64,000 nt of DNA from Nitrospira lenta (lineage in GTDB: Bacteria > Nitrospirota > Nitrospiria > Nitrospirales > Nitrospiraceae): the NCBI RefSeq assembly GCF_900403705.1, contig NZ_OUNR01000001.1, positions 744,001-808,000 on the forward strand, given 5' to 3'. A model generated the notes under the pieces. The model had not been told where the DNA came from. It ran no database searches and saw only the letters and a list, made by a program, of their open reading frames with translations. Below, piece after piece: positions 4,464 through 8,269 of the stretch; the first letter of the stretch is position 1, and every line of letters begins with the position of its first letter. The translations under genes and the position numbers were made by a program.

Positions 4464-5027
4464 CTACTCCTTGCTCCGCTTCAACCGCGTATTTACAGCT
4501 TGCTGCAATCGAAATCGCCAGGGCTTCTTAGCCCACGCGCCGGCATAGTCCACACCGATTCTCGGAAGCGCGGCAACCTGCCCGCGCAAGATCCGGTCTC
4601 CTCGATCCTCAAACCAGAGAGACTCCTGTGTCGTCAAATCCATCCGGTTCAGGCTCCGGTCAATCTGCAACGCGCGGCAGAGCCGTCCGGGACCATCGAT
4701 CAACACTCCATCAACTTCAATCGCCCGAATCAACACCGCAGCGGGAAACTCCTCCCGCTCCGTCACAACATTCAAGCAGTGATACATCCCGTAGATCAGA
4801 TAGACGTACGCATTCCCCGGTGGCCCAAAGAGCACCTCAGTCCGCTTCGTTCGTCCCTTCGACGCATGACAAGCCTTATCCTGCGGCCCGACATAGGCCT
4901 CGACTTCAATAATCCGTCCGGCAATTTCACGACCATCGAGTACGCGCACCAAATACTTACCGATCAGCGAACGCGCGACCTGAACGGTGCCTCGGGAGAA
5001 GTAGTGCTGGGGGAGAACGTTGCTCAT
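4464..5027 (-). CDS. DNA-3-methyladenine glycosylase, AAG/MPG type
   Basis: A 187-residue monofunctional glycosylase that would remove alkylated bases such as 3-methyladenine and start base excision repair. It carries the family signatures RIIEVEAYVGPQDKACHAS (with the catalytic Glu and the Tyr that wedges the helix) and GPPGNAYVYLIYGMYHCLNVV. Length fits bacterial members. I chose ATG 5027 (MSNVLPQHYF) over an in-frame start at 5105, because the family normally begins just before the YF-x-R segment and the extra 26 residues look non-coding. It stands alone, convergent with the upstream plus-strand gene. Confidence 0.93.
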   Translation of the reverse strand: MSNVLPQHYFSRGTVQVARSLIGKYLVRVLDGREIAGRIIEVEAYVGPQDKACHASKGRTKRTEVLFGPPGNAYVYLIYGMYHCLNVVTEREEFPAAVLIRAIEVDGVLIDGPGRLCRALQIDRSLNRMDLTTQESLWFEDRGDRILRGQVAALPRIGVDYAGAWAKKPWRFRLQQAVNTRLKRSKE

Positions 5028-5178
5028 ATGAAGCCGCTTGCAAATACTCTCACACTGCCACCTCAAAATGACATCCAGCAGGGCCGCAGGAAGCTCGACG
5101 ACCAAGACGTACGATTTCGATACGTTGCAGGGAGACGAGCGCCCGATAACGCAGCTGGGAGTTATTTTCAGGTGCCAT

Positions 5179-7224
5179 TTAAAAGTACCAGGCTAGGCCG
5201 CCCATGAAAGTCCGCGGATTCCCCGGCACAAAATGTATGTCGGTGACCGGAGCAGACTCATTGCGCAGCTGGGAAGCGAACGCGAATGTCGCTTGCTCCC
5301 ATTTTGTATTAAACAGATTTTGGATAAATAGGAACGCCTCCATTCGTCCATGAGGCAGCTTGATCGGCAGCTGATAGCGCTCCGATAGATCGACATCGAT
5401 CCAGGCTGGCGACTTGATGCTGCGATCTTCGATCAGCGGCCGGACGCCGAGATAGGTCGCCTGCAACTGAGAGGTGAGCCCCTCGGGCCATTTCAAGAGG
5501 AGCGCTCCGTATGCCGTCACTTCAGGAGCCAAGGGAATGGCGTCGCCGTTGCGGAATTCAGCCTTAGTCCAGGTCACGCTCCCGTTGAAGTACAGTGGTC
5601 CCCACACCTGACCTCGTGCGGCGACTTCTACTCCCTCCCGTCTGGTCGCCCCGCGAATCTCCGTTGTGCCTTCGTCACCGACAAAGACGAGCTCCGATTT
5701 CAGATCGAGGCGCCAGAGCGTCGCGATCAATTCCAGGCCATCGGCACCGAAGGGTTTCGATCGAACACCGACTTCATAGCTCCTGGCCCGCGCGAGCGGC
5801 GCAGAGCCCGGCGCCACCGCCGACCGCGCATCGTTGCTGTGATACCCCTCCCCGTAATTGATAAACAGCTCAGTGCTCGCCCAGGGGCCAAGGATAACGT
5901 TCATCTTGGGCAGGACGACGCCGGAACTCTTCCGACCGGCCGGCTGCTCCGTGCAGGTCGCGCAGCGATTACGGACGTCGAAGGTAAAGGTTTCACCGCG
6001 AAGGCCACCGGCCAGCCGCAGCCACTCCGTCGGCTGAACCTCGGCCTTGACGAAAGGCGCGTAGGAGGCTTCCAGAATATCGCTGTCCGTCGTGACCCCT
6101 GTCACTGCCCGCTTCGTTTGCGTGCCGAGCCGCGCATGGATGTCGTCTACACGGGTTTGCACACCGATGGTTCCGATGCTGGGAAGGCCGAACACGTCGC
6201 CACGCTGCTTGTAGCCAAGATCGCCGCCATACATCACACGGCGATCGGATTGGACGATCCCGTCGCCGTTGACCGGATCGTTCTGAAAGAACGTGAAGTT
6301 GGTATAGAGATCGAGCCGATAGTATTGGGCGTAGGCATTCGCAAAGAACTGCCCGCCGGACGTGGTGTCGTAGTGGTACTTCAGCCTGGCCGTGCTGCGC
6401 ATGGTTTTCCCGCCTTCCGACGGGTCGATCGCCCCGAAGCGATCGACCAGACCATCATGGACGGCGCGCAACGGAATCTCACCGGACGCATTCCACTGAG
6501 ACTTCAGGAATGTTGCCGTCAGACTCAGCTCATCACGGCCCGTGAGATTCGTCGTCAGCTTCCCGAAAAGATTGGTACGGAAATATCGGTTGTCGCTCTG
6601 GAACGGACCGTTGGTGTAATACCCCTCCGCCGCAATGAGCGTGCGGATTTTCTCCGTCGTCGGCGAAAACATCAAAAGGTTTCGAGTCGTACTGAACTGC
6701 CCGCCCGCAACCTGCACCACCCCTTCCTTTACCATCTCGCGCGTCTTGAAATTCACCGCCCCCGCCGTCGCAAAGTCGCCATACTCCGGCAGATAAGCCC
6801 CCTTATTCACATCCAGGCCTTCAATCGTTTCAGGGATGATGAAGTTGAGATCCGTGTAGCCTTGGCCATGGCCATGCGAACGCAGATTGATCGGCATACC
6901 ATCGGCGAAAAAGGCGACATCGGTTCCGTGATCGGCATCGACCCCCCGCAGAAAGTATTGATCGGCCTTCCCAGCACCCCCGGAATGTTCCACGGCCAGA
7001 AAACCGGGAATCAATCGCAACACTTGAGCCGGACGGCCTTGCGGCTGGAGCAAATATTCTTTATCGGGAATAAACTGCTGAGAGGAGGCCGCCACGGGCC
7101 GCTCGCCGATGACGGAGACTTCGGACACTTCCAATTCAGGCACATCCGGATCATGGGCCGCGGCTCGTTCAATGCTACTCGCCGAGACACACATGACGAT
7201 GACTGCGACTGCAATCCGCCTCAT
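5179..7224 (-). CDS. TonB-dependent outer-membrane receptor, probably for nickel
   Basis: A 681-residue receptor: signal peptide, short TonB-box region (LEVSEVSVIGERP), plug domain with FLRGVDADHGTDVAFFADG and INLRSHGHGQGYTDLNF, then a beta-barrel ending in an aromatic residue (GLAWYF). Start ATG 7224 has GGGGAG eight bases upstream; a GTG at 7233 is possible. It follows nikR and a DUF3842 gene on the same strand (116-base gap), which suggests uptake of a nickel chelate. This substrate is inferred from context only. The plug has several His residues (HSGG, HG, HGHG) that could line a metal path. A CATC pair lies in one extracellular-type loop. Confidence 0.88.
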   Translation of the reverse strand: MRRIAVAVIVMCVSASSIERAAAHDPDVPELEVSEVSVIGERPVAASSQQFIPDKEYLLQPQGRPAQVLRLIPGFLAVEHSGGAGKADQYFLRGVDADHGTDVAFFADGMPINLRSHGHGQGYTDLNFIIPETIEGLDVNKGAYLPEYGDFATAGAVNFKTREMVKEGVVQVAGGQFSTTRNLLMFSPTTEKIRTLIAAEGYYTNGPFQSDNRYFRTNLFGKLTTNLTGRDELSLTATFLKSQWNASGEIPLRAVHDGLVDRFGAIDPSEGGKTMRSTARLKYHYDTTSGGQFFANAYAQYYRLDLYTNFTFFQNDPVNGDGIVQSDRRVMYGGDLGYKQRGDVFGLPSIGTIGVQTRVDDIHARLGTQTKRAVTGVTTDSDILEASYAPFVKAEVQPTEWLRLAGGLRGETFTFDVRNRCATCTEQPAGRKSSGVVLPKMNVILGPWASTELFINYGEGYHSNDARSAVAPGSAPLARARSYEVGVRSKPFGADGLELIATLWRLDLKSELVFVGDEGTTEIRGATRREGVEVAARGQVWGPLYFNGSVTWTKAEFRNGDAIPLAPEVTAYGALLLKWPEGLTSQLQATYLGVRPLIEDRSIKSPAWIDVDLSERYQLPIKLPHGRMEAFLFIQNLFNTKWEQATFAFASQLRNESAPVTDIHFVPGNPRTFMGGLAWYF

Positions 7225-7349
7225 ATCCACCACTCCCCATTGCTCATGTGTGGACGGATGAGACGCCCACGGTGATCACGCGACAGCCGACTCATCGACT
7301 GGCGTAGACCCTCGTGGCCTCGCAACTCACAACCGTTTGAAACACGTTG

Positions 7350-7775
7350 CTACGTCTGGCAGGCCGGCTGCGCTAAGGCGCGGACGCGCGCGAGAGAGCG
7401 GGCAATCAACATATCCAAGGTCCCGTCTTCACTTCCCACAATCTCCACCCGGGCTCGATTCAGCGGCAACAATACCTTCGTGGCCTTTGCCGCAAGAATG
7501 GCCTTCACCATCTCAGGAGTGACCTCACCCAGCATGGCGCCGGGCAACACCACGTTCAACGATGCCACGATGACATCGACCGTCGAAACCATGTGCATAA
7601 TAGCGTGTGGTCCGGCAGCCACCTGCTCGGCCCCGGCCTGCCTCATCGCTTCGGCAGCTGCTTCGTTCGTCCCCAAGGCAACAATTTGGCAATCCGGCCC
7701 TACGGTCTCCCGCAAGCCTATGACCAACCGACAACCCAGCCCTCCGCCCCGCCCATCGATCACACAGACCCGCAC
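7350..7775 (-). CDS. DUF3842 family protein
   Basis: A 141-residue cytoplasmic protein. It shows the DUF3842 pattern: an N-terminal VIDGRGGGLG nucleotide-binding-like loop, LGTNEAAAEAMRQAGAE, a LPGAMLGEVTPEM segment and LLPLNRARVEIVG near the C-terminus. The function of the family is unknown; the glycine-rich start suggests a Rossmann-like fold. The start is GTG 7775, three bases after the nikR stop, so the two are almost certainly translated from one message. Its place between nikR and a TonB receptor points to a part in nickel handling or sensing. This is inference from position only. Confidence 0.8.
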   Translation of the reverse strand: MRVCVIDGRGGGLGCRLVIGLRETVGPDCQIVALGTNEAAAEAMRQAGAEQVAAGPHAIMHMVSTVDVIVASLNVVLPGAMLGEVTPEMVKAILAAKATKVLLPLNRARVEIVGSEDGTLDMLIARSLARVRALAQPACQT

Positions 7776-7778
7776 CGT

Positions 7779-8195
7779 TTAATCCAGGCCCTTGCCGGTC
7801 GTGGTCATCGTCAACTTGCCGTGCTTCACGCCTTTCACCGTCACCAGCGCGTCGGCAATTTTTCTGATCTCCGACCCTTTTCCCTTCACCACCAGCACTT
7901 CCAGGCAATGATCGTGATCCAGATGCACATGCATGCCGGACAGAATCTTTCCGTGATAGTCGTGCTGAATATCGGTGAGCTTGCTCGTCAAATCGGGCAC
8001 ATGATGATCGTAGACAAACGTAATGGTGCCGACCGTTTCCTTATTTTGATCCCACTCTTGCCCGACCAGATTATCGCGGATCAAATCGCGCAGAGCTTCC
8101 GACCTATTGGTGTACTTCCGCCGCTCGATATGTTGATCGAATGCATCCAGCAGATGATGATCAAGAGAGACGCCGAAACGAACCAGCTTTTTCAT
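7779..8195 (-). CDS. nikR: Nickel-responsive transcriptional regulator NikR
   Basis: A 138-residue ribbon-helix-helix/ACT repressor. The N-terminal DNA-binding part includes VRFGVSLDHHLLDAFD and RSEALRDLIR. The C-terminal nickel-binding domain has the four ligands of the family at His78, His89, His91 and Cys97 (QH, then HVHLDHDHC), spaced as in E. coli NikR (76, 87, 89, 95). It binds DNA as a Ni-loaded tetramer. GGAGGAG lies just before ATG 8195. It heads a nikR-DUF3842-TonB receptor operon and has a perfect inverted repeat directly upstream, so it probably regulates itself and the receptor. Confidence 0.96.
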   Translation of the reverse strand: MKKLVRFGVSLDHHLLDAFDQHIERRKYTNRSEALRDLIRDNLVGQEWDQNKETVGTITFVYDHHVPDLTSKLTDIQHDYHGKILSGMHVHLDHDHCLEVLVVKGKGSEIRKIADALVTVKGVKHGKLTMTTTGKGLD

Positions 8196-8203
8196 ACTCC
8201 TCC

Positions 8204-8232
8204 AGTGCTACGATTTTCTGAAACGTAGCACT
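8204..8232 (-). promoter_or_regulatory. Probable NikR operator
   Basis: A perfect 9-bp inverted repeat, AGTGCTACG (8204-8212) and CGTAGCACT (8224-8232), with an 11-base AT-rich spacer. Written as GTGCTAC-N13-GTAGCAC it resembles the GTGTTAC-N13/14-GTAACAC operator reported for Geobacter NikR. It lies 9 bases upstream of the nikR ATG, next to its Shine-Dalgarno. Confidence 0.75.
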
Positions 8233-8239
8233 GTAGGAA

Positions 8240-8269
8240 CACGGGCGTCAAGACAGGGCGACGCCCGTG
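8240..8269 (-). terminator. Hairpin after the HtrA protease gene
   Basis: A perfect 10-bp stem (8240-8249 with 8260-8269) has a 10-base loop. It lies 29 bases past the stop of the protease gene and ahead of nikR. On the minus strand it is followed only by TTCC, so the U-tract is weak. Confidence 0.52.

Follow-up and report, generated by a model that had tools for sequence, protein, structure and literature searches.

The palindromic element just upstream of nikR in the window (the whole stretch of Nitrospira lenta DNA analyzed here, 64,000 nucleotides long) is very probably the operator of the nickel repressor NikR, through which nikR, a DUF3842 gene, and a TonB-dependent receptor gene would be repressed when nickel is plentiful (Table 1). 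With somewhat less assurance, we favor a broader reading for a large NikR branch (Arg-Gly-Ser type and close variants; Nitrospirota, Acidobacteriota, and Gamma-/Deltaproteobacteria), in which the operator consists of two orientation-free, self-symmetric GTRNYAC heptamers at a fixed two-turn spacing, with direct, inverted, and everted layouts interchangeable, and all NikR-regulated genes of Nitrospira form a single operon, centered on an undescribed nickel receptor of the outer membrane. The main nitrite oxidizers are Nitrospira, a group that includes the comammox bacteria, and many of them need nickel for urease; a family-wide NikR-controlled TonB receptor would be a testable nickel route through the outer membrane. 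A literature search (relevance judged by title) found nothing on NikR in Nitrospira.

Table 1. Features of the predicted nickel-responsive operon in the window
Feature	Positions	Strand	Description	Basis
TonB-dependent outer-membrane receptor	5179..7233	minus	proposed nickel/nickel-complex receptor and main operator target	PF00593/PF07715
DUF3842 protein	7350..7775	minus	optional operon member	PF12953
nikR	7779..8195	minus	nickel-responsive ribbon-helix-helix repressor, 138 aa, Arg-Gly-Ser DNA-contact strand	NF003381, PF08753, PF01402
nikR Shine-Dalgarno	8197..8203	minus	GGAGGAG	sequence
Predicted NikR operator	8203..8233	.	CAGTGCTACG-N11-CGTAGCACTG; core heptamers 8205-8211 and 8225-8231, 13-bp spacer	exact sequence and conservation
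-10-like hexamer	8222..8227	minus	TACGTT, TG one base upstream; overlaps promoter-proximal heptamer	sequence
-35-like hexamer	8246..8251	minus	TTGACG	sequence; recurrence in relatives

The element and its probable repressor

A sequence-only reading had described a perfect inverted repeat, GTGCTAC-N13-GTAGCAC, before nikR. The match is exact (8205-8211 and 8225-8231), and the perfect arms are longer than claimed, at 10 bp each (CAGTGCTACG, 8203-8212; CGTAGCACTG, 8224-8233), around an 11-bp loop. The distance of 9 bases from the heptamer element to the nikR ATG (8195, minus strand) was also borne out; the nikR Shine-Dalgarno sequence is located between palindrome and ATG, with base 8203 common to both it and the palindrome. 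Searched exactly across the 3.76-Mb genome, GTGYTAC-N12..15-GTARCAC occurs just once. Between htrA and the operator lies another inverted repeat (CACGGGCGTC...GACGCCCGTG, 8240-8269), which contains the -35-like TTGACG; it is possibly the htrA end and is not kept in the nearest relative (L068).

By its sequence, the gene directly downstream is a true NikR, scoring 206.6 bits against NF003381 (cut-off, 105), 118.4 against PF08753, and 28.6 against PF01402, with its RHH_1 and NikR_C domains both above curated cut-offs. The nickel ligands H78, H89, H91, and C97 do not vary among nine aligned relatives; those of E. coli NikR are H76, H87, H89, and C95 (PMC7055735). The closest solved structure is P. 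horikoshii NikR (2bj1). The DNA-contact strand reads R6-F-G8-V-S10 (RFGVS), and an R-x-G-x-S strand is present in 104 of the 114 loci having the element. Arg-Gly-Ser contact strands are linked to the Geobacter site type, and Benanti and Chivers are said to have reported one in G. uraniireducens NikR in 2010. Compared by sequence alone, the window protein is alike in R6-x-G8-x-S10, whereas phylum and regulon differ; a literature search found nothing on the G. uraniireducens protein (GuNikR).

One locus (L157, = G053) has the sole Arg-Ala-Ser NikR of the set, paired with the sole GTATTAC-N14-GTATTAC site, possibly a single case of protein-DNA co-change. At another (L093; G034:C124:257170-257570), a change of frame breaks nikR, the receptor match ends early, and the operator is retained; either this copy is decaying or the assembly is in error.

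Conservation, half-site orientation, and known operators

What was computed here covers the sequence and its conservation, half-site spacing and orientation freedom, overlap with the promoter, and gene neighborhood. The sample comprised 135 nonredundant nikR loci from the phylum and beyond, and heptamer pairs were searched from -350 to +1000 relative to the nikR start at spacings of 4 to 26. Exact GTRNYAC pairs were found at N13 in 71/135 loci and at N14 in 5/135, with no more than 3 at any other spacing, and for two control heptamer pairs of comparable composition, the count at N13/N14 was 0 to 1. With one mismatch allowed, the element was present in 114/135 loci, and all 38 single mismatches fell on the outer G1 or C7; the 21 loci with no element of at least 11/12 near nikR were mostly from other phyla or distant classes. 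Within a close set of 79 nonredundant loci with NikR at least 72% identical, which share descent and are not independent events, every locus has a 7-13-7 element just 5' of nikR (76 score at least 11/12, and the other 3 score 10/12). The sequence-only reading had named a lack of such sites before nikR in relatives as grounds for abandoning it; they are present throughout this set. Information per column (76 relatives) is mostly 1 to 2 bits in the half-sites and below 0.3 in most flanking columns, and the central heptamer base is freer (1.12 bits in one half and 0.19 in the other).

The palindrome by itself is weak evidence, because perfect inverted repeats with 9-bp arms (loops of 3 to 20) are not rare in the GC-rich window, where 26 were counted versus 7 in dinucleotide shuffles; a chance palindrome would be in keeping with these figures. 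Conservation among relatives refutes it, however: the footprint in 79/79 close loci, the spacing peak seen alongside its controls, and the one genomic copy leave chance a negligible probability. As a separate observation, two loci from genomes without detected NikR (L233, G054; L234, G039) both have GTGCCACAAAAATTCCATTCGTATTAC, a match to the strict operator pattern that represents chance or another function.

The GTRNYAC pattern is unchanged by reverse complementation. Halves were classed as forward (F; GTGNTAC), reverse (R; GTANCAC), or symmetric (S; GTGNCAC/GTANTAC), and the 76 exact sites fell into all nine combinations (FS 16, FR 15, SR 12, FF 11, RS 9, SF 6, RR 3, SS 3, RF 1). The perfect inverted repeat that had been put forward as the feature therefore holds for the window site itself, but most relatives are direct, mixed, or everted; because the strictly inverted layout (FR) occurs in only 18/114 relatives, it is not defining in the wider set. 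At L120, where NikR is 86% identical, GTGCTAC-N13-GTGCTAC stands at nearly the same place. The essential feature would thus appear to be a pair of self-symmetric heptamers at a fixed 13/14-bp spacing rather than a perfect inverted repeat. Each heptamer would contact a ribbon-helix-helix dimer of two-fold symmetry, and since the heptamer is nearly its own reverse complement, its orientation should hardly matter; the 13-bp spacing should, as it gives a center-to-center distance of 20 bp between the heptamers, close to two turns of the helix. An orientation-free heptamer would also account for the NikR sites of "opposite orientation" described in D. psychrophila and at D. vulgaris nikK (Rodionov et al. 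2004, PMC545781). Scans for inverted repeats only would miss most sites, because most relatives are not strictly inverted, and the orientation-free heptamer may be the better pattern for NikR regulon searches.

The delta-proteobacterial NikR signal, GTGTTAC-[N13/14]-GTAACAC (Geobacter and Desulfovibrio; Rodionov et al. 2004, PMC545781), has the same GTRNYAC frame, 13/14 spacing, and association of NikR with nickel-transport genes. The likeness to the Geobacter site noted earlier holds up, in that the arms are identical except at their central base (C/G in the window, T/A there), and this base varies freely across relatives. The targets differ (nikR and a TonB receptor here, NikMNQO there), and relatives of the window add direct and mixed layouts to the inverted ones and to the everted ones of the 2004 study. 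With heptamers at 13/14, conservation in relatives, an Arg-Gly-Ser cognate NikR, and an inverted layout, the window operator would be a new member of the known Geobacter-type class; what the analysis adds is a target that stays constant (the receptor), a single strong site in each genome, the promoter overlap, and the orientation-free heptamer. The E. coli NikR operator, GTATGA-N16-TCATAC (PMC7055735), is likewise bipartite, with a tetramer reading it through two ribbon-helix-helix dimers, as proposed for the window, but half-site and spacing differ, in agreement with the earlier reading, and its target is nikABCDE; the window sequence does not fit the E. coli pattern.

The arms also resemble CIRCE, the HrcA element (TTAGCACTC-N9-GAGTGCTAA; consensus from PMC545781), with TAGCACT/AGTGCTA common to the heptamer core and CIRCE, and could in principle belong to this other regulator. 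The arm order is inverted relative to CIRCE, however, and the spacer is 13 rather than 9; the outer bases are not conserved, and the neighbors are nickel-type rather than chaperone genes. A CIRCE identity was rejected by arm order and spacing, and a regulator other than NikR is extremely improbable.

Promoter overlap and a proposed nickel switch

The predicted NikR operator overlaps a sigma70-like promoter at its -10 hexamer. The -35-like and -10-like hexamers of the window are spaced 18 bp apart, and the overlap of -10 and heptamer recurs in relatives, 47/76 of which have a -35-like hexamer (two mismatches at most; shuffles, 13.5%), separated from the downstream -10 position by 17 or 18 bp in every case. 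A generic promoter scan placed the window promoter below threshold because its -10, TACGTT, is weak.

When nickel is scarce, apo-NikR would be off the DNA, and the free promoter would allow transcription of nikR, DUF3842, and the TonB-dependent receptor from a predicted start near 8215; the receptor made would let more nickel pass the outer membrane. Once nickel suffices, a Ni-NikR tetramer would bind with one ribbon-helix-helix dimer on each heptamer, and the dimer on the promoter-proximal one would lie over the -10 and the predicted start. Because the element overlaps the -10, Ni-NikR most likely represses through such a block of RNA polymerase. The result would be a negative feedback loop in which NikR itself is limited too. 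In this scheme, we infer NikR binding, nickel dependence, and the direction of regulation.

The same bases could act in RNA, as a leader hairpin that hides the nikR Shine-Dalgarno sequence (translation control or attenuation). The arms do extend into Shine-Dalgarno pairing (8196-8240, minus strand; -22.2 kcal/mol, z -6.6), the same stem is found in the nearest relatives (in L073, 8511-8556, -27, z -9.1), and outward pairing is raised among inverted-type sites, although this surplus may reflect a pyrimidine-rich promoter spacer opposite the purine-rich Shine-Dalgarno sequence. In most relatives, however, the layout is direct or mixed and the stem impossible; three such leaders folded near shuffle level (z -0.2 to -1.8), and heptamers and spacing are kept where pairing is not. 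The predicted transcript start within the spacer would also leave the 5' arm out of the RNA. Because direct and mixed relatives do not form this stem and the predicted start is inside the spacer, RNA pairing would not be the conserved function; folding and pairing counts rejected it for most relatives, and we consider it very improbable as an explanation of the element. A minor RNA role on read-through mRNA from the upstream htrA is possible.

Receptor, operon, and regulon

As a NikR operator, the element would have the receptor as its main target. The same TonB receptor family adjoins nikR in 79/79 close loci. DUF3842, on which a literature search found nothing, starts 3 bp past the nikR stop and lies between nikR and the receptor in only part of these loci; in the others, the rest of the operon is unchanged and the receptor stands almost directly behind nikR. 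Control by NikR of the whole nikR-DUF3842-receptor run, as proposed from the first reading, is supported by this gene order, with the receptor as the constant target and DUF3842 often absent.

Were the operator to autoregulate nikR only, the receptor would be a bystander under its own control, an arrangement suggested by the position of the window element closest to nikR and by the 116 bp that separate DUF3842 from the receptor. However, no evident terminator and no promoter-like site were found in this gap, the receptor comes almost directly after nikR where DUF3842 is absent, and among 11 distant receptor-bearing loci, the element has moved to the receptor's upstream region in 10. Nine loci (sister family and relatives) have it between nikR and receptor, directly before the receptor; at L157, receptor and nikR are divergent, with the element between them; and L206 is the sole distant locus keeping it before nikR. 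Because the element relocates with the receptor, the receptor, rather than nikR, would be the constant target, and autoregulation of nikR only is very improbable.

Neighboring genes elsewhere point to the cargo. At three loci (L155, L167, and L169; Gamma-/Deltaproteobacteria), the element is beside CbiM/CbiQ transporter genes (CbiM-type, nickel/cobalt), and at L223, from the window's class, it separates nikR from a divergently oriented gene run, in which a NicO-like gene (26 bits, just below the 27.7 cut-off) is accompanied by a TonB_C gene and a TonB receptor gene. Nickel, free or complexed, is therefore the likely cargo of the window receptor, which we infer from context alone because the receptor had no sequence relative in the PDB at E <= 0.001. 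Control of outer-membrane nickel uptake by NikR, as proposed here, is also found in H. pylori (fecA3 and frpB4; PMC7055735), but NikR is pleiotropic there, with poorly conserved sites, whereas here there is one well-conserved site per genome.

The first reading had suggested looking for the site near hydrogenase, urease, and nickel transport genes; no further strong site was found in this genome. A one-mismatch genome scan gave 12 matches, none beyond chance (67 in a reversed-pattern control), and there was no second strong site near urease or the NicO-type gene, both of which the genome has, so the NikR regulon would be a single operon. Over 59 genomes, a stricter pattern recovered nearly only the nikR or receptor site. 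CbiM was not found in this genome, nor a CbiM/NikM importer in any of the 59 genomes of the order. Matches to NiFe-hydrogenase in the genome are weak and N-terminal and probably represent the related complex I subunit.

Several receptor histidines and cysteines are near-invariant in 78 relatives (H83, H102, H120, H122, H287, C424, C427, and H465), and the plug loop RSHGHGQGY is among the near-invariant positions; these His/Cys residues are possible metal contacts. At one locus (L072:8575-9549), a gene resembling a TonB-type energy-transducing protein is inserted between nikR and DUF3842, and L074, L076, and L077 have nikR-DUF3842 gaps of similar size; if the insert is TonB-type, the receptor would have its own TonB. 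A 3-methyladenine DNA glycosylase gene (4464-5105 in the window) lies behind the receptor in most relatives.
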